From Nitrospinales bacterium (GTDB lineage: Bacteria; Nitrospinota_A; UBA7883; JACRGQ01), in NCBI GenBank assembly GCA_023248535.1, contig JAHFEJ010000013.1, positions 1 to 47,952 of the forward strand: a stretch of 47,952 bases of DNA, written 5' to 3'. The stretch's first letter is position 1. Each line of letters begins with the position of its first letter. The position numbers were made by a program, and so were the translations under genes. Of this stretch, positions 6,256 to 28,527 are shown in pieces. The notes under the pieces were generated by a model. That model was not told the DNA's origin. It made no database searches and saw nothing but the letters and a program-made list of their open reading frames with translations.

Positions 6256-6777
6256 TTGCCCACCGACAAAGTTGCCGGCGGACGCTTCCTCAAGCCGTTC
6301 GGCATCGGCGGCGAGCTTAAGTTCGAGTCGTATCTGCCCGACGATTACTCCCCCGATGCATTCACCGTCGGCCACCTGGCCTCGGCGGGGGCAAAGCCGG
6401 AACGCGAAATCTACATCGCCGGTGCCCGCCATCTGCGCGGCGTCACTTGGGCCGTGCAACCGGACGGCTGCAACTCCCCCGAAGAAGCCGCCGAATATGT
6501 TAACCGCGAATTCCTCATACGGCGCGATCTGCTGCCGCCGCTGAAGCAGGGGGAATACCTGTATCAGGACATCATTGGATGCGCGGTCTATAAGGAAGAC
6601 GGCGAACGGCTGGGAGAGATCACCGGCATCATGGAAACCGGCGCCAACGACGTATGGGTCATCACCGCCGACGGACACCGCGAGCTGCTCATCCCCGTCA
6701 TCCACGACGTGGTGCGCCAGATAGACGTTCCCGGCAGAAAGATAACGATCCACGTTCTGGAAGGGCTGTTCGACTGA
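6256..6777 (+). CDS. rimM: Ribosome maturation factor RimM
   Basis: RimM assists 30S head assembly by binding S19. The reading frame has no suitable ATG: the TTG at 6256, one base after khpA, gives [21 protein letters not shown], where KPFGIGGE matches the conserved KPHGIKGE region. The protein is 173 aa with an N-terminal RimM barrel and a C-terminal PRC-barrel ending [16 protein letters not shown]. The stop TGA overlaps the ATG of trmD by one base. Confidence 0.93.
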
Positions 6778-8042
6778 TGCGGTTCGACCTGTTGACCATC
6801 TTCCCCGGCATCTTCGATTCCTTCCTGGGGGAAAGCCTCCTTAAAAAAGCGCGCGACAAGGGGCTGGTCGACGTGCGGGTGCACGACCTGCGCCCCTTCA
6901 CCGAAAGCAAGCATGGCAAGACCGACGACGCCCCCTTCGGCGGCGGCGCCGGCATGGTGATGACGCCGCAGCCGCTGGCCGACGCCCTCGATGTGCTGAA
7001 AAAAGAAGGCCCGGCAAAAACCATACTTCTCTCGCCGCGCGGCAATCCGTTCACGCAGGAAAAGGCGCGCGAACTGGCGCGTGAAAAGCGGCTCATTCTC
7101 GTCTGCGGCCGGTACGAAGGGGTGGATGAGCGGATCGTGGAACACTGGATAGACGAAGAGATTTCGCTGGGCGATTACGTGCTCAACGGCGGCGAGGTGG
7201 CGGCGATGGCGGTGGTGGAAGCGGTCTTCCGCCTGATCCCCGGCGCGGTCGGCAGCCCGGAATCGCTCAGCGGCGAAAGCCACGAGGCGGGGCTGCTGGA
7301 ATATCCGCAGTACACCCGCCCTGAAGAATTCCGCGGCCACAAAGTGCCCGACATCCTTCTCTCCGGCCATCACGAAAACATACGCAAGTGGCGGCATGAA
7401 CAGGCGTTGAAAAAAACCGCCGAGGTGCGCCCCGACCTGTTGGAACGCCTCGGTGAGGATGCGCCGATACCGCGCTTTTCCATCGCGCTGGTGCATCACC
7501 CGGTAGCGGGAAAAAACGGCAACGAAATCGCCAGTTCCATCACCACGCTGGACGTGCATGACATGGCGCGCTACGGCAAAACCTTTGGCGCGGAGCGCAT
7601 CTACATCATCACCCCCGTGGCGGACCAGAAAGTGCTGGTGGAGCGGATGAAAAGCCACTGGACCGACGAAGAATATTTGAAAAAACAGAACGTGCGGCGC
7701 GAAGGGACGGTGGAGCTGCTCGTCACCCTCCCTTCCGTTGAAGACGCGGTGGCCCACGCCCGCAAGCGCTCCAAGCGGGTGAAACTGCTGGCCACCACCG
7801 CGCGGCGCGAGCCGGGCGCGGTGAGCGCCGATCAATGGCGCGCGCTGGCGGCGGAAGAGGCCGACGAGTGGATCATCCTCTTCGGCACCGCCTACGGGCT
7901 GGGAAAATCGCTGATGGAACGGGCCGACCGGACGCTGCTCCCCATCGACGGGGCGGGCGCATTTAACCATTTGCCTGTGAGGGGCGCTTCTGCTATTATT
8001 TTGGATCGTCTGATAAGTAGAAAGAGGAAGGAACCAAAATGA
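6777..8042 (+). CDS. trmD: tRNA (guanine-37-N1)-methyltransferase TrmD fused to a second SPOUT-like RNA methyltransferase domain
   Basis: TrmD methylates G37 of tRNAs with a G next to the anticodon. Residues 1 to about 235 are a complete Trm[22 protein letters not shown], the deep-knot segment [11 protein letters not shown], and [11 protein letters not shown]. The 421 aa length is far above the usual 230-260 aa. Residues about 243-421 ([22 protein letters not shown] onwards) resemble the SAM-dependent RNA methyltransferase family Methyltrn_RNA_4, which I recall being adjacent or fused to TrmD in deltaproteobacteria and relatives. The target of the second domain is not known. The gene overlaps rimM (TGATG) and rplS (ATGA). 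Confidence 0.94.
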
Positions 8043-17444: not shown

Positions 17445-18428
17445 CTACAAATCGCACAACCAGCCGCATAGGGAAGATACTTGATCCGGATCGGTCAAGT
17501 TGGCGGCGTTGCTAATAATTCCATCTTCCAATTGATGCCAAATTTCTTCAGCCATATCTTTCTCTATTGCCGCGCCCACAAAAAAAGCGTGGGGTGAAAG
17601 TCTTTTCCTGGAAAACGCCTTGTTTATTCTGGTAAGGGATGTTCTTGCGGTTTTCCAATGTTCATCGGCCCCTGCCGGATCAATTCCGCCCTTTAGCTCC
17701 CCCAGCGCTATATAAAGGGAAGGGTTGTTAAAGGCGGTGGATAGTTCTGCCGGGTCACAGTTTAAAAGACATAAATCGACATTCTTATTAACAAAAGGAA
17801 CCTTACGGTTGTATACCATAGTGCGGCTTTTGCCCTTCCGGCGCCAGCTTAACGCAGAAATATAAAGCTCGATATCGGCATCTTCATCCTTTCCCGTTAT
17901 CCATTCTTTACTATCGCCGTGTAACCACTGATAAGGAGTTTTTGCTAAACTCAGATTGGCTAAGGTGGCGCGGGTCAACTTGCGTTCCGCCAAAACCCCT
18001 CCAACATTTCTCATTGAGCCTCCCAGAGTGTCTCCTCTGGTTAAGAGAAACCTGAAAACCAATTCCTCCACAAATACCGGCCCGGCCGGTTCAAGATATT
18101 TTGATATCAAGCCTTGAATTGCCTCAATTTTGTCTTGAGGCAATAAATATTTCATGGCTTTATCGGAAACTCCGGCCGCTGTCAGCAAGGCAGGCTGAAT
18201 ACTATCGATATTAAGCAAATCAGCGGGAGATTTCGCCTGGGATGCGGCGGCTTTTAGTGACCTGGCTTGTTCAATAAAAGGTGTGGCGCGCCGGTTCTTT
18301 TCAAGGGCCAGCGCTACAAAACCGGCCCTGGTTTCCTCATAGGTCGTTACCAAGCTGGAGCTGGCGGATAGATGCTTACGGTACGGCGCCTTCTTAGCCA
18401 CTATATTTTGCTCCAAACATAGACGCAC
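17445..18428 (-). CDS. Type II restriction endonuclease, AvaI/BsoBI family
   Basis: The 327 aa length fits AvaI and BsoBI (about 315-323 aa). The sequence shows [20 protein letters not shown], which holds Glu244 and Lys246, with Asp218 in NVDLCLL; this is the D...ExK catalytic triad of the family, spaced as in Bso[11 protein letters not shown] near the N-terminus and FFVGAAIE near the C-terminus also match what I recall of the family. AvaI and BsoBI recognise CYCGRG; the same site is likely here but not proven. The start overlaps the methyltransferase by 28 bases. Lower GC than the neighbours suggests acquisition by transfer. Confidence 0.88.
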
Positions 18429-19921
18429 TTTCTTAAGGCATCCCGGCCATGTTTTCCCATCTGTTGACTGCTATTTCCCTTGCCTTTTGGAAGCACAAGG
18501 ATATTTTCGATGCGGAAACCCAACTTTTCAGCGATGCTTGAAAGTATCAGGTCAACCGAAATACTTGCTCCCGCATAACGCACATTGTCATTGACCATAA
18601 ACAGAAGTGCGTTGGGTTTCATAACCCGGTTGCATTCGGCAATGATACAAGCCATTTCATAAAAATATCCCCTGACCATTCTCGGTATGCCGGGATTGTT
18701 TAATCTTCCCTGCGCCTTCTCAATCTCCAAATAGCACAAAATAGACTGTAGTAACTTTTGATCATCCGCGGCCATTATGGCATCTGACCATTTTGGATTT
18801 ATTTTAAGTAAATCTTTGGCCCGGTTTTCAACCGTACAGCTGAGCATTTCCTGCCGAAGCCGGGACAATTCCCCCTCTCCAATGCCAAGCAACGCCAGTT
18901 CCAGCGCATATGTTCTGGTGTAGTCATAACGGTTGCAGTAGGGCGGGGATGTCACAACGGCATCGTAAGAGTTATCCGGGAGCGTTGGCATCACATCCAA
19001 CGATGAACCGCTGAAAAGCTCTGTGTGACCCGGCTGGGTTAATCTTTCTGAAGGAAACAGCTCGCCAGATGCTTTGCCGCCTTCCAAATCGTGGCGAATC
19101 TCCATTAATTTGGCGTATATCGCTTTATCGAAATCAAGAATTTTGCCCTTATCAAAAGATTTAATCCCTTGGCGGCGGCCTGAACGATAATCCCAGCGGA
19201 GATATTGTCCATCTTTTCGCGTAAAGCTAACGGACTCCAATATGCACAGTAACGCAAATCGTAAAACTAGCTGAACGCCTTCATTTTCACGTTGACTGGC
19301 CCCTAAATAACGCTCGATAGATTCAAGGGTTTCCTTTGGGTAGGCGCCATTTGTGATACGCAAAGATTGATGAGTTACTTTCGTTTCTGATTGATGCCAC
19401 GGATGTTCTTCACTCCACTTTTTAATGGCAGCGAAATCATCTTTGGAAAATTCCTTCTCCAAACATTTTCTGGCAAGAAAGATTTGTTGGCCGATTGGAA
19501 GCAGCTCAATACCGTCCGCGTCTATTCCAGCCTCACTTGCCACAAATAATGCCGTACCGCTTCCAGCAAAAGGGTCTAGAACCTTACCTGAACTAATACC
19601 ATATTTTTTGAGCAGGTATTCAATTAGGGTGGCGGAAAAAGCTTCTTTATACTTGTACCAACGATAGGAGGCTCTCGGTTTATTCGCCTGAAAACTGACA
19701 AGCTGGCGAGTAAGCGTAGGCTGAACAACTATTATTTTATGGAAGTGCCGAAATAATTTGTGATCGAGCGTCTCTATTTCGCTTAGAGAGAGATGGTTTT
19801 TAAAGGGATCGTCAACCTGAGCGCCCCCTTCGCCAATATCCAGAAGGCTCTCAAGCGCATCGGCGGAAATAACCGATTTTCCCCCAGCCGGAAAAAGCGG
19901 CTCAATTACTGACGATGCCAT
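18401..19921 (-). CDS. DNA methyltransferase of the AvaI/BsoBI-type system
   Basis: This 506 aa SAM-dependent methyltransferase protects the site cut by the adjacent nuclease. Motif I is [13 protein letters not shown] at about residues 115-127 and motif IV is [13 protein letters not shown] at about 340-352; the TSPPY form is typical of N4-cytosine enzymes. FxGxG preceding SPPY gives the motif order of the alpha- or gamma-type amino-methyltransferases. AAGGA precedes the ATG. It is translated before the nuclease, in the usual protective order. No C-protein controller gene is present. Confidence 0.9.
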
Positions 19922-23634: not shown

Positions 23635-23738
23635 AACCACAGAGCCACAAAGACACGGAGAAGCCTCTTTAGCAGACGCATAATAAATCATGGCAAGAGG
23701 TTTGTTTTGCAACTCTGTGTCTCTGAGCCTCTGTGGTC
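23635..23738. repeat. ACAGAG-type intergenic inverted repeat, copy 7
   Basis: Left arm AACCACAGAGCCACAAAGAC, centre AT-rich, right arm CTCTGTGTCTCTGAGCCTC and TGTGGTCA. It lies between the divergent uvrA and ispH promoters. Confidence 0.88.
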
Positions 23739-23754
23739 ATATCCATACACAGAA

Positions 23755-23994
23755 ATGCCGCAAGGCATGACCCCTCTTGGCGCTGGCGCGCCAACGTACC
23801 CAATAAATTGGGTACCCACCAAAGAATAGGCTCAGCACACCGCCGGCCCCCACGGAGCCGCCCACCTTGCAGGTATATGTATTAATACGGATAGATATAA
23901 TAGAAAACATCCCGGTCAATGTTAGATGGATCAGCCTTGGTAGGGGCGGCATTCTTGCCGCCCATTGGGCCAATCGGCGATAGGAGTATCGCCG
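23755..23994. repeat. Trains of short intergenic hairpins (blocks C and D)
   Basis: Block C: ATGCC-gcaa-GGCAT (23755-23768), TTGGCGC-tggc-GCGCCAA (23777-23794) and GTACCCAAT-aa-ATTGGGTAC (23796-23815), in the same order as block A. Block D: GGGCGGCA-ttct-TGCCGCCC (23944-23963), ATTGGGCCAAT, and CGGCGATA-ggag-TATCGCCG (23975-23994). Between them 23816-23940 shows no gene. Confidence 0.75.
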
Positions 23995-24072: not shown

Positions 24073-25770
24073 ATGGCAGAGATCAAATTGGCAAAAACCG
24101 CCGGCTTTTGCTGGGGGGTAAAGCGGGCTATCGATATCACGCTGGAATCGGCGCGCGGCAAGGGAGAAGAGGTCTACACCTACGGCCCGCTTATTCACAA
24201 CCCGCAGCTGATAAAACTGCTTGAAAGCAAGAACATCCATGTGGAAACCAATCTGGACAATCTGAAACCGGGGAGCGAGGTCATCATCCGCACCCACGGG
24301 ATAACCCCGCAAAAGAGGGACGATCTGAAACGGCACGGCCTCGTTATCAGCGATGCAACCTGCCCCTTGGTCGCCAAAGTCCAGGGGATGATCCGCAAAT
24401 TCTCGCGCAAAGGCTATTCAATCGTGATCGTCGGCGATGACCATCACGCCGAGGTGGCGGGCCTGAAAGGGTTCGCGGAAACGCCGGTCTACGTTGTGGC
24501 ATCGCTCGAAGAGGCTAAAAAGCTGCCGGATATGGAAAAAGTGTTTGTCGCCGCCCAAACAACCTGCGACATCCAAAACTATGAAGCCATCAAAAAATAC
24601 TTCCGGGAAAAATGCCCCGATCTGGAAATAGGGGAGACCATCTGCGAAGCGACCGACGAACGGCAAAGCGAGGTGATCCGGCTTTCAAAAGAGGTCGATG
24701 CCATGGTCATCGTCGGCGGCAAAAATTCTGCCAATACCGCGCGGCTGGCCGGCATCGCAAAAGAGCAGGGGCTTGATACCTTCCATATAGAAACTGACGA
24801 TGAGCTTGACCTTACGCATATGGCCAAATATCAAAGTATCGGCGTTACCGCGGGGGCTTCTACGCCAAAATGGATCATTGATGCGGTTGTGGCAAAGCTC
24901 TCCAGCATTAAGGAGCAGCGCAAGCCGCTGCCGGTGGAGATATTGGGGATAATCGTAAAAAGCAACCTTTTCCTCGCGGCGGGGGGGGCAATACTCACCT
25001 ATACCAATGCGCTGATGCTGAAAGAAACGCCAAATCCGCTGATAGTGGGGGTGGCCTTCTGCGCCATCGCTGCCACCTATCTCACGAACCAGCTATTGCG
25101 GCCAAAAGAAATTCAAAAGAGCCAGATCAGAAAATACAACTATCACCTGAAATACAATTCCCTTTTCTGGGGGATCGCCATTGCGGCGGCGGTATCCGGG
25201 ATGGTTTTATCGTTTAACCTCGGATGGCCTTCCTTGGCGATCTATCTGGCGGTTGTCGGATTCGGCACCACCTACGGCTTGGATAGAGGCCGGTTCCGCC
25301 TTTTTGTCCGGTTAAAGGATATTCCCGCATCAAAGGATATTTTTGTAAGCCTGGCCTGGGTGATGATAACCGTGGTTTTGACGTACATAAACGAAAAAGG
25401 AACCGGGAATATTACCTTCCCGCTCTTAATTACCTTTGGAATCGCCTATACCCGTTCCATTCTGTTCGACATACGCGATATTTACGCCGACCAGGTTATC
25501 GGGAAGGAGGTTATGCCGATGCTTGTCGGAAAAGAACATGCGAAAAAGACCCTGTATGGGGTGCTTTTGGGCATTTCCATTATCTGCATAATGGATATTC
25601 TATTCGGGGGGAGGGGATCGCTTATGGCCGCCTATCTTTTGGGAATTGCCTACCTACTCGGTTTTGTTTACTACAATGAGAGCAAGATTTGGATTAATTC
25701 AGCAAAGTTTGACCTGTTCCTCGATACCCCATACTTTATCATTGGGGCGGTGGCATACCTGATCGCCTAA
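24073..25770 (+). CDS. ispH: 4-hydroxy-3-methylbut-2-enyl diphosphate reductase (IspH/LytB) fused to a UbiA-like prenyltransferase domain
   Basis: The N-terminal part (about residues 1-280) is IspH, the last MEP-pathway enzyme, which makes IPP and DMAPP. The [4Fe-4S] cysteines are in GFCWGVKRA (Cys12), DATCPLVAK and GETICEATDERQ; the catalytic Glu lies in HAEVAG and substrate contacts in SANTARL. Residues about 295-565 form eight or nine transmembrane helices like the UbiA superfamily. Its second Asp motif is recognisable (DIRDIYADQVIG), but the first motif, normally NDxxDxxxD, reads TNQLLRPKE. The 565 aa length is nearly twice that of IspH alone. The ATG at 24073 is chosen over an upstream frame start at 23965 inside hairpin repeats. 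The fusion may anchor IspH to the membrane or channel product. Confidence 0.9.
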   Translation: MAEIKLAKTAGFCWGVKRAIDITLESARGKGEEVYTYGPLIHNPQLIKLLESKNIHVETNLDNLKPGSEVIIRTHGITPQKRDDLKRHGLVISDATCPLVAKVQGMIRKFSRKGYSIVIVGDDHHAEVAGLKGFAETPVYVVASLEEAKKLPDMEKVFVAAQTTCDIQNYEAIKKYFREKCPDLEIGETICEATDERQSEVIRLSKEVDAMVIVGGKNSANTARLAGIAKEQGLDTFHIETDDELDLTHMAKYQSIGVTAGASTPKWIIDAVVAKLSSIKEQRKPLPVEILGIIVKSNLFLAAGGAILTYTNALMLKETPNPLIVGVAFCAIAATYLTNQLLRPKEIQKSQIRKYNYHLKYNSLFWGIAIAAAVSGMVLSFNLGWPSLAIYLAVVGFGTTYGLDRGRFRLFVRLKDIPASKDIFVSLAWVMITVVLTYINEKGTGNITFPLLITFGIAYTRSILFDIRDIYADQVIGKEVMPMLVGKEHAKKTLYGVLLGISIICIMDILFGGRGSLMAAYLLGIAYLLGFVYYNESKIWINSAKFDLFLDTPYFIIGAVAYLIA

Positions 25771-25777
25771 CTCCGAT

Positions 25778-25793
25778 TGTTCCACGTGGAACA
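25778..25793. promoter_or_regulatory. parS: parS centromere site 1
   Basis: TGTTCCACGTGGAACA is a perfect 16-bp palindrome matching bacterial parS, extended by flanking bases to 22 bp (25775-25796). It lies just after the ispH fusion stop and 219 bases before parA. Confidence 0.9.
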
Positions 25794-25815: not shown

Positions 25816-25902
25816 AACCACAGAGACTCAGAGTCACAGAGCTAATATTTTCTCTGCAAAAGCATCCCTTACTCTCTCCGTGTCTCAGTGCCTCAGTGGT
25901 TC
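25816..25902. repeat. ACAGAG-type intergenic inverted repeat, copy 8
   Basis: Left arm AACCACAGAGACTCAGAGTC, centre AT-rich, right arm CTCCGTGTCTCAGTGCCTC and AGTGGTT. It sits exactly between the two parS sites. Confidence 0.88.
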
Positions 25903-25918
25903 ATGCCCCCAAAATCAA

Positions 25919-25934
25919 CGTTCCACGTGGAACA
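25919..25934. promoter_or_regulatory. parS: parS centromere site 2
   Basis: CGTTCCACGTGGAACA retains the 14-bp palindromic core GTTCCACGTGGAAC (25920-25933) and differs from site 1 only in the first base. Confidence 0.88.
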
Positions 25935-25974
25935 TCAACAACCTTTTCGGCCTCAACCTTAGAACAATTTCCCC

Positions 25975-26003
25975 TTGCCGCTCCAAGGTTCACCTGCTAC
26001 ACT
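25975..26003 (+). promoter_or_regulatory. parAB promoter, leaderless arrangement
   Basis: TTGCCG (25975-25980), a 17-base spacer and TACACT (25998-26003); the ATG at 26012 follows after eight bases with no Shine-Dalgarno sequence. parS site 2 lies 41 bases upstream, so ParB spreading could repress this promoter. Confidence 0.5.
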
Positions 26004-26011
26004 TTTCCCTA

Positions 26012-26818
26012 ATGCTCACCATCGCCATTTCCAATCAAAAAGGGGGGGTTGGGAAAACCACCACCGCCATCAACCTCGGTGCCTGCCTGGCTCTATCAGG
26101 AAAAAGAACCCTTATCATCGATATCGACCCTCAGGCGAATACCACTTCGGGCCTAGGACTCTCAACCGAATCCGAACACACAATTTACAACGCCCTGATT
26201 GATGAAAACGCCGATAACGGGCACATCAAGCCGACCATTGTGGAAAACCTTCACGTCCTTTCCTCCGATATCAATCTGGCCGCAGCGGAAATAGAACTTT
26301 CCAATTACGAAAACGCGCATTACCGCCTTAAAGGCATCCTTAATAAACTGCGCCACAAGTTCGATTTCATCCTCATCGACTGCCCCCCGGCACTCGGGTT
26401 TCTTACCATCAATGCACTGGTAGCCTCAGATTCGGTGCTCATACCGTTGCAAACCGAATACTTTGCGCTCGAAGGTTTGGGTAAATTGATGAATACTATC
26501 AATATGATACGCGACTCATACAACCCGTCGTTGGAGATTGAGGGACTTCTTTTTACCATGTATGACAAGCGGACCTCTCTTTCTAACCAGGTTGTTGAAG
26601 AGATTAAAAAGAACTTCACCAGCCACGTTTTTGAAACGGTCATCCCCCGGAATATACGGCTTTCAGAAGCTCCCAGCCACGGCCTTCCGATATCGCTTTA
26701 CGATACGAAATCAAAAGGGGCCGATGCCTACATCGATCTCGCGCGTGAAATAATATCCCGCAGAAAAAGTTATTTCGAGGCGCTGAAAAACGCCCCCGCC
26801 GCCGTGACGGAGCAGTAA
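26012..26818 (+). CDS. parA: Chromosome partitioning ATPase ParA (Soj)
   Basis: ParA is a Walker-type ATPase that moves ParB-parS complexes and segregates origins. The 268 aa protein starts MLTIAISNQKGGVGKTTTAINLG, with the deviant Walker A motif (KGGVGKTT), IDIDPQANTTSGLG and LIDCPPALG. There is no N-terminal helix-turn-helix extension, so it is the chromosomal Soj type. The ATG at 26012 is chosen because the frame upstream overlaps parS and the promoter. parB follows after three bases. Confidence 0.97.
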   Translation: MLTIAISNQKGGVGKTTTAINLGACLALSGKRTLIIDIDPQANTTSGLGLSTESEHTIYNALIDENADNGHIKPTIVENLHVLSSDINLAAAEIELSNYENAHYRLKGILNKLRHKFDFILIDCPPALGFLTINALVASDSVLIPLQTEYFALEGLGKLMNTINMIRDSYNPSLEIEGLLFTMYDKRTSLSNQVVEEIKKNFTSHVFETVIPRNIRLSEAPSHGLPISLYDTKSKGADAYIDLAREIISRRKSYFEALKNAPAAVTEQ

Positions 26819-26821
26819 GCG

Positions 26822-27664
26822 ATGATTCAAAGAAAAGCGCTCGGCAAAGGGCTGTCGGCGTTCCTCCCCGATCAGGGAAAGATGAACGCCCCGCGCGTGA
26901 GCGAGATCCCGCTCGCCGACATTGTCGCCAACCGCTATCAGCCGCGGCTTTCATTCAAAGACGAGGCCCTGAAAGAGCTGGCCGCGTCGATCAAGGAGAA
27001 CGGCCTCATCCAGCCCGTGATCGTACACAAGGTTGATAACGGGTACGAGCTGATAGCGGGGGAACGGAGGTTCCGCGCGGCTAAAATGCTCGGCATGGCC
27101 GCGATACCGGCCATCATCAAGTCGGTGCAAAACGCCGAGGCGTTGGAAATGGCGATCGTCGAGAACATCCAGCGGGAAGAGCTTAATCCGATAGAAGAGG
27201 CGAAAGCCTACAAAATGCTGATGCACGAGTTCAAGCTCACGCAGGAGATGGTGGCGAAAAAAGTGGGGAAGCAGCGCCCAACGGTGGCGAACACCTTGCG
27301 GCTGCTCAACCTGCCGTTCGAGATACAGGGGGACATCGAAACCGGCCGCCTGACGATGGGGCATGCCCGCGCCCTGCTGGCCTGCGAAACCGAATCCGCC
27401 ATGATGGAGATGCGTACGCAGATACTCCAGCTTGGCCTCAACGTGCGCGATACGGAATCAAAAACCACCAGGAAAAAAACTACCGCCGCCAAGGTCAAAG
27501 CCGAGCTTGATCCGAACGTCCGCGCGTTCATCGAATCGCTCCAAAAAAAACTTTCCACCAAGGTCACTTTGAAACCGAACAAAAAAGGGGGAGGCACCCT
27601 CACGTTTGAGTACTACACCCAGGACGATTTTGAGCGTCTTTTGGAGCATTTGGAGCGTTTGTAG
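26822..27664 (+). CDS. parB: Chromosome partitioning protein ParB (Spo0J)
   Basis: ParB is a CTP-dependent clamp that loads at parS and spreads along DNA. The 280 aa protein has the N-terminal RKALGKGLSAFLP ParA-stimulating segment, the CTP-binding motifs GERRFRAAKMLG and ENIQREELNPIEEA, a helix-turn-helix near 125-165 (LTQEMVAKKVGKQRPTVANT), and a C-terminal dimerisation region after a Lys-rich linker. Its binding sites are visible 0.9-1.0 kb upstream. Confidence 0.97.
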   Translation: MIQRKALGKGLSAFLPDQGKMNAPRVSEIPLADIVANRYQPRLSFKDEALKELAASIKENGLIQPVIVHKVDNGYELIAGERRFRAAKMLGMAAIPAIIKSVQNAEALEMAIVENIQREELNPIEEAKAYKMLMHEFKLTQEMVAKKVGKQRPTVANTLRLLNLPFEIQGDIETGRLTMGHARALLACETESAMMEMRTQILQLGLNVRDTESKTTRKKTTAAKVKAELDPNVRAFIESLQKKLSTKVTLKPNKKGGGTLTFEYYTQDDFERLLEHLERL

Positions 27665-27792
27665 TCTCTTGGTGCATTTGCAGGAATTGCACGAAATGAC
27701 GGGGCAAATTCAGCTATCGTATCTATTTGTTTTCTTTTTCTTTATTTGTGGCTTTCGTGCCCCATTTTTTGCAATTTGAGAGCCGCCAACCG

Positions 27793-28527
27793 ATGAAAGG
27801 TTATGTTTTAATCCTTGGGGCAAACTCCGATATCGCCCGGCCCCTCGCGCGGCTCTACGCCGCCGCCGGTTACAACCTTTACCTTGCCCATACCCGGCCC
27901 GAACTTTTAACCGAAGAATGCGAACGCCTGAAAGCGGAACATGGCATCGATGCCAGGCCGCTGCTGTTCGATCTTCTCTACTTCAACGGCCACGAAAAAT
28001 TCTTTCACCGGCTCGATCCGCGTCCTGCCGGCGTCATCTGTATCGGCGGCTATCTCGGCGATCATCAACTCGCCACGGCGGATATGGAAGAAGTGTCAAA
28101 GATCATCCAGATCAATTTCGCCGGGCCCGTCTCCATCCTCAACATCGCCGCCGACTGTTATGAAAAAGAAAAGGCGGGCTTCATCGTCGGCGTAAGCGCG
28201 GCGATGGGGGAGAGGGGATTTGGCAACCGCTACTTTTACGCCGCGGCCAAAGCGGCGTTTACCGCGTATCTTTCCGGCCTGCGCAACCGGCTGTCATCCA
28301 GCGGCGTGCGCGTGCTCACCGTGAAGCCGGGATTCGTGGCGACGAAAATGACGGCGGGAATATCTTTTCCGCGCCGCCTCACCGCGCGCCCCGAAGATGT
28401 GGCGCGCGATATTTTCCGCGCGCAGCAGAAGGGGAGGGATGTCCTCTACACGCCGGGTTATTGGAGATTCCTGATGTGGATTTTCATCCACCTCCCCGAA
28501 GGGCTGTTCAAGCGGATGAAGTTGTAG
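27793..28527 (+). CDS. Short-chain dehydrogenase/reductase family protein
   Basis: This 244 aa NAD(P)-dependent SDR has the nucleotide-binding segment LILGANSDIARPLARLYA at residues 6-23 and the catalytic YxxxK in YFYAAAKAAF near 155, with a Ser in VGVSAAMGERG. The ATG at 27793 begins MKGYVLILGA, the usual SDR start; the longer frame upstream is AT-rich and untypical. The C-terminus is hydrophobic (WRFLMWIFIHLPEGLF), which may bind the membrane. No linked pathway genes identify the substrate. It converges with the sulfur-relay operon. Confidence 0.85.
   Translation: MKGYVLILGANSDIARPLARLYAAAGYNLYLAHTRPELLTEECERLKAEHGIDARPLLFDLLYFNGHEKFFHRLDPRPAGVICIGGYLGDHQLATADMEEVSKIIQINFAGPVSILNIAADCYEKEKAGFIVGVSAAMGERGFGNRYFYAAAKAAFTAYLSGLRNRLSSSGVRVLTVKPGFVATKMTAGISFPRRLTARPEDVARDIFRAQQKGRDVLYTPGYWRFLMWIFIHLPEGLFKRMKL

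Follow-up and report, generated by a model that had tools for sequence, protein, structure and literature searches.

A gene in a contig of a Nitrospinales bacterium (JAHFEJ010000013.1) joins IspH to a UbiA-fold membrane domain, which raises the question of what such a domain does for IspH. The question dates from at least 2015, and it concerns many lineages, in which the domain is almost exclusively joined to IspH. We analysed the first 47,952 nucleotides of the contig (the window, meaning this whole stretch) and found that the first of the two Asp motifs of the domain has degenerated across the fused family and has vanished from one clade, in which the domain stays under strong selection. This moves the question from which acceptor is prenylated to what role a UbiA fold lacking motif 1 plays for IspH.

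An IspH-UbiA fusion in one reading frame

The fusion gene occupies positions 24073-25770 of the window (+ strand) as a single uninterrupted ORF of 565 codons plus stop, encoding IspH followed by the UbiA-fold domain. An in-frame TTG is present at 23965; nonetheless, orthologues in the same genus start at the Met of MAEIK, which corresponds to the ATG at 24073. These orthologues, from three genomes, are 564-565 aa long and 81-89% identical to the window protein, and further members in its family and class (41-55% identity) are without internal stops. A frameshift, assembly or annotation artefact was ruled out by the one open frame and the same-length fusions elsewhere. The first-pass annotation, made from the letters alone, had described IspH joined to a UbiA-like membrane domain and had allowed for a frameshift or annotation error joining two genes. 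The description is confirmed by the single ORF with both LYTB and UbiA Pfam matches, and the suspected error was not borne out.

Residues 4-276 (24082-24900, +) matched the LYTB/IspH family (Pfam PF02401, E 6.5e-92), and the protein scored 295.8 bits against TIGR00216 (cut-off 187.85), which places it in the curated IspH family. Residues C13, C97, C191, H42, H75, H125, E127, T163/T164, S219, N221 and S263 were invariant in 31 fusions, and the three cluster Cys and the active-site His, Glu, Thr, Ser and Asn of IspH are all present in the window protein. Foldseek of the structural model retrieved the IspH structure 3dnf (E 6.6e-20). The genome, which is 98% complete, contains no IspH copy besides the fusion, so the fusion is its sole IspH.

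A linker of residues 277-289 (24901-24939, +), marked by a dip in pLDDT (71), separates the IspH domain from the UbiA-fold domain, which spans residues 290-564 (start approximate; 24940-25764, +). Within the latter, residues 365-534 matched UbiA (Pfam PF01040, 41.7 bits, cut-off 34.2). An AlphaFold2 model built from 31 fusions (mean pLDDT 86, pTM 0.58) showed the IspH domain followed by nine long, transmembrane helices; at this pTM, how the two domains sit relative to each other is unsettled. Foldseek aligned the model with the archaeal UbiA structures 4tq4, 4tq3 and 4od4 at target TM-scores of 0.64-0.71, and when the UbiA half was the sole query, profile searching of the PDB gave a chance match and nothing else. 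The Pfam score over cut-off and the nine-helix fold assign the domain to the UbiA superfamily. Family knowledge suggests that the UbiA half crosses the inner membrane and that IspH is cytoplasmic.

The UbiA half was then used to search 388 genomes, and strong matches were obtained in frames of 558-637 aa beginning with IspH. The fusion was present in its own phylum, throughout its class, and beyond the phylum in 27 sampled genomes belonging to 21 families; by record name, these others include Planctomycetota, candidate division B38 and records filed under Nitrospirae and Pseudomonadota. The exceptions to the fused state were fragments at contig ends and standalone relatives in one family, f83 (genomes L139, L151 and L152). 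In two of these three genomes, the standalone proteins, which lack motif 1, adjoin succinate dehydrogenase genes (L151:5045-5986 and L152:4177-5169, both on the - strand). A new observation is that the domain rarely occurs apart from IspH and that its range reaches Nitrospinota and Planctomycetota. The architecture itself is not new, because Rao et al. 2015 (PMC4746011) already published it: they described 47 IspH-UbiA fusions, termed 'Rosetta stone' proteins, from sulfate reducers, assigned the UbiA part to the class PT_UbiA_5 with function unknown, stated that it carries two DXXXD repeats, and reported that an intact active fusion could not be expressed. With IspH at the N-terminus, the UbiA-like domain at the C-terminus and one ORF, the window protein belongs to this fusion family.

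The two Asp motifs of the UbiA-fold domain

The first-pass annotation had noticed that NQLLRPKE stands in place of a first Asp motif, given there as NDxxDxxxD. In an hhalign profile alignment against canonical UbiA proteins of the class, N339 occupied the position of the motif Asn, R343 that of the first metal-binding Asp and I347 that of the next Asp, which confirms the replacement. The remnant, N339-QLLRPKE-I347, lies at the end of TM2 (25087-25113, +). In terms of the archaeal enzyme AfUbiA, N68 is kept as N339, D72 is changed to R343 and D76 to I347. Residues 284-403 contain no Asp at all, so motif 1 is beyond rescue by any realignment; this and the hhalign register ruled out an intact motif 1 masked by misalignment, and the enzyme-type pattern N-x-x-x-D-x-x-x-D does not occur in the window protein. 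The consensus used in the annotation needs one correction. In the same class, canonical CyoE and UbiA/MqnP-type proteins carry NNxxDxxxD or NRxxDxxxD, so the letter following N is not diagnostic; the loss of the Asp residues is real, but the 'D' of 'ND' is not required.

We counted the motif positions across 63 fusions, with the alignment of motif 1 being less certain for the most divergent of them. The Asn was retained in 52/63, the first Asp position held D in 34/63 and E in 11/63, and the second Asp was present in 9/63. Both Asp residues occurred together in only two fusions (L021 and L095), both outside the phylum, and these few also keep the Asn. Within the window's own family (n=10), the position equivalent to D72 held R in six members, N in three, L in one and Asp in none, so the loss is conserved in 10/10. 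Traced along the IspH tree, this position shows at least seven changes of its acid. Motif 1 is thus degenerate across nearly the whole fused family and absent in the window's own family, which has not been described before.

The second motif had been called partly present. The stretch DIRDIYADQ is indeed there, but the motif is complete rather than partial: D466-IR-D469-IYA-D473 (25468-25491, +), at the end of TM6, contains the enzyme-type DxxxD as D469-I-Y-A-D473. D469 was Asp in 51/63 fusions and Glu in 5/63, D473 was Asp in 61/63, and both were kept in 10/10 members of the own family. Other sites were conserved as well. Y401 (25273-25275, +), a conserved pocket Tyr and the probable equivalent of AfUbiA Y139, was found in 57/63 fusions, and D551 in TM9 (25723-25725, +), a conserved acid of the fused family, in 61/63. 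The best-conserved stretch was the signature loop RLKDIPASKD (residues 413-422; 25309-25338, +), which we used as a search pattern for family members; its P418, S420 and K421 were conserved at 90-94%. W429, K421, S420, R461, G477, G486 and D551 were conserved at 92-98% of the 63 fusions, with the basic residues R461 and K421 each in 59/63. Y401, S420, K421, R461 and D551 were also kept in all ten members of the own family. In two fusions of the candidate division B38 type (L042 and L046), motif 2 is gone too, the sequences reading IWVIQSN and IWIIQSN, and the RLKDIPASKD loop is kept.

These patterns bear on whether the UbiA half works as a prenyl transferase or cyclase of an unusual kind that uses DMAPP/IPP made locally by IspH, in which Arg/Lys residues and motif 2 take over from the metal site of motif 1; a non-canonical chemistry of this sort could have Arg standing in for Mg2+. 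Rao et al. 2015 (PMC4746011) took such a view, and in the form adapted here to the motif loss we regard it as possible but doubtful. Motif 2 and Y401 are retained, as would be expected of an enzyme, R461 and K421 could supply the basic residues, L021 and L095 still have the N, D and D of motif 1, and the fusion of IspH with UbiA has a pathway logic (PMC4746011); the strong purifying selection described below also fits an enzyme. On the other hand, the Mg2+ bridging the diphosphate in AfUbiA is held by Asn68 and Asp72; neither the N68A nor the D72A mutant bound GPP, and effects were milder in motif 2, where D198A raised the KD 45-fold and D202A 21-fold (PMC4106721). The loss of the D72 equivalent therefore argues against a transferase, as do the repeated changes of that acid on the IspH tree and the lack of a conserved partner gene across phyla among the neighbours sampled.

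Selection, genomic context and the role of the membrane half

Between genus members, IspH had a dN/dS of 0.072-0.089 and the UbiA half one of 0.066-0.094, ratios that are rough because dS is high (0.75-2.3). The UbiA half is as constrained as IspH by this measure and is therefore not decaying, and recent pseudogenisation was ruled out. Identity to outgroup fusions showed a different pattern for the two halves: for IspH it was 47% in the own family and 49% in other Nitrospinia, and for the UbiA half 25% and 35%, respectively. The stem of the own family measured 1.35 changes per site on the UbiA tree versus 0.37 on the IspH tree. We then divided the UbiA half at residue 398 into the motif-1 half and the remainder. 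Among 29 sites conserved in other fusions, the own family keeps 0/6 before residue 398 and 16/23 after that point, 398 included (Fisher p = 0.004); with sites invariant in the smaller Nitrospinia set, the contrast was weaker (2/13 versus 19/51 kept, p = 0.19). These results show that the UbiA domain is under strong purifying selection and that the lost constraint is concentrated in the motif-1 half, indicating that the domain is not a canonical transferase, and not a relic in decay either.

A passive membrane anchor with a drifting pocket would account for the repeated loss of motif 1 and for the faster divergence of the UbiA half, with IspH diverging equally in both groups. We consider this improbable, since dN/dS is 0.07-0.09, the motif-2 Asp residues and the five other sites above are kept throughout the own family, and all nine helices are retained although one or two suffice for anchoring.

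Separate ubiA homologues, which the first-pass annotation had suggested looking for, were found elsewhere in the genome: the heme O synthase CyoE (TIGR01473, 261 versus cut-off 210.3) and a prenyltransferase of the UbiA/MqnP type, with masked N breaking its reading frame, both motif-intact. The relatives searched likewise carry motif-intact UbiA-family genes alongside the fusion. This ruled out that the fusion has taken over from the UbiA enzymes for menaquinone or heme, and because the separate enzymes exist, the fusion is not needed for the CyoE or UbiA/MqnP-type reactions. No conserved operon partner that could supply an acceptor was found across phyla among the neighbours sampled, which vary by lineage.

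Several features of the surrounding DNA were recorded. Four Nitrospinia genomes of families f3-f5 carry, as the next gene downstream of the fusion, one encoding 334-338 aa (L025:3918-4922, with equivalents in L027, L028 and L029); in one of them, L025, it matches O-methyltransferase families in Pfam, and the window's own family lacks it. Two perfect parS-like palindromes, GTTCCACGTGGAAC, lie at 25779-25792 and 25920-25933, between the fusion gene and parA/parB (25880-27664), with a chance expectation of 0.14 when up to two mismatches are allowed; such sites also follow the fusion gene in several other genomes of the own family. Imperfect repeats of the CACAGAGnCACAGAG type, direct and inverted and resembling a small dispersed repeat, flank the fusion gene at 23636-23660, 23713-23737, 25816-25841 and 25875-25901. 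After parB, 27727-28527 (+) encodes a short-chain dehydrogenase nearest to PRK07102 (265 versus cut-off 267 bits); it matches DprE2 (decaprenylphospho-pentose reductase) less strongly. Elsewhere in the window, a BsoBI-type restriction endonuclease (17445-19921, -; PF09194, E 2e-150) overlaps a DNA methylase gene as a restriction-modification pair among housekeeping genes, and one ORF at 6654-8042 (+) joins TrmD to a second RNA methyltransferase domain (PF01746 and PF09936).

The loss of the motif-1 metal site under strong selection implies that the membrane half probably does something other than ordinary prenyl transfer. We put at about even the chance that it is a membrane-anchoring, probably ligand-binding module and not a canonical Mg-dependent prenyltransferase. 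The IspH half, predicted to be the only HMBPP reductase of the cell, would make IPP and DMAPP, and the complete UbiA fold at its C-terminus would tie it to the inner membrane. In the own family, with the diphosphate-holding metal site of motif 1 lost, ordinary Mg2+-dependent prenyl transfer would be gone. The family retains motif 2 and the RLKDIPASKD loop, along with several residues that are charged or polar, and their conservation suggests that the remaining half-pocket most likely still binds an isoprenoid or a related lipid. The membrane platform may hand the IspH product to membrane isoprenoid synthesis, or it may tune IspH activity. The first-pass annotation had listed an unusual transferase, a phosphatase, a channel and an anchor and had singled out none of them; that caution stands, but a canonical Mg2+ transferase and an unconstrained neutral anchor are now disfavoured.

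Comparison with known systems

The fusions of Rao et al. 2015 share with the window protein the domain order, the size, the single ORF and the presence of separate UbiA/MenA-type enzymes. They differ in coming from sulfate reducers and in having two DXXXD motifs, whereas the window fusion comes from Nitrospinota and has motif 2 with motif 1 gone. The standalone proteins of family f83 have a similar motif layout, with an LKxxPxxK loop, a DIRD/DLRDxxxD motif 2 and ERNLT replacing motif 1, but they are unfused, and their three genomes carry an ordinary separate IspH. The IspH-RPS1 fusions of Clostridia and others likewise carry a large C-terminal extension on IspH, and the NCBIfam IspH-RPS1 model matched the window protein over the IspH half alone; their extension is ribosomal protein S1, whereas that of the window fusion is a membrane domain.

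Compared with AfUbiA (4tq3/4tq4) and ApUbiA (4od4/4od5), the window fusion has the same nine-helix fold, the DxxxD motif 2 ending TM6 and the pocket Tyr. The archaeal enzymes keep the motif-1 Asp residues that the window protein has lost, and the signature loop RLKDIPASKD sets the fused family apart from them. The fused UbiA domains also form a clade of their own, separate from the canonical UbiA sequences tested.

The UbiA half might instead be an isoprenoid sensor that controls IspH in the manner of UBIAD1, which we think unlikely. Human UBIAD1 is a UbiA-fold sensor that binds geranylgeranyl diphosphate and regulates HMG-CoA reductase, and its motif-1 mutant N102S still binds HMGCR (PMC9314443). 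The enzyme to which it binds is the rate-limiting one of isoprenoid synthesis, and in the fusion the UbiA fold is likewise tied, by a covalent link, to an isoprenoid-synthesis enzyme; loss of a catalytic motif with retention of the fold is also what a sensor would be expected to show. Against this, the reading draws on analogy, and the domain arrangement in the model is the unsettled one noted above. Taken furthest, the analogy would make the fused UbiA domain a covalent bacterial counterpart of the UBIAD1-HMGCR complex: with prenyl transfer abandoned mostly or entirely, it would sense membrane isoprenoids and regulate the last enzyme of the MEP pathway in many bacterial lineages, a proposal that we offer as speculative and rather unlikely. 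If the UbiA half regulates or channels isoprenoid precursors, it would provide a bacterial parallel to the control of HMG-CoA reductase by UBIAD1. In the UBIAD1-HMGCR complex (8djk), as in the fusion, a UbiA fold is physically bound to an isoprenoid-synthesis enzyme; the complex consists of two eukaryotic proteins of the mevalonate pathway with a known GGpp sensor, whereas the fusion is a single protein for which sensing is suggested by analogy.
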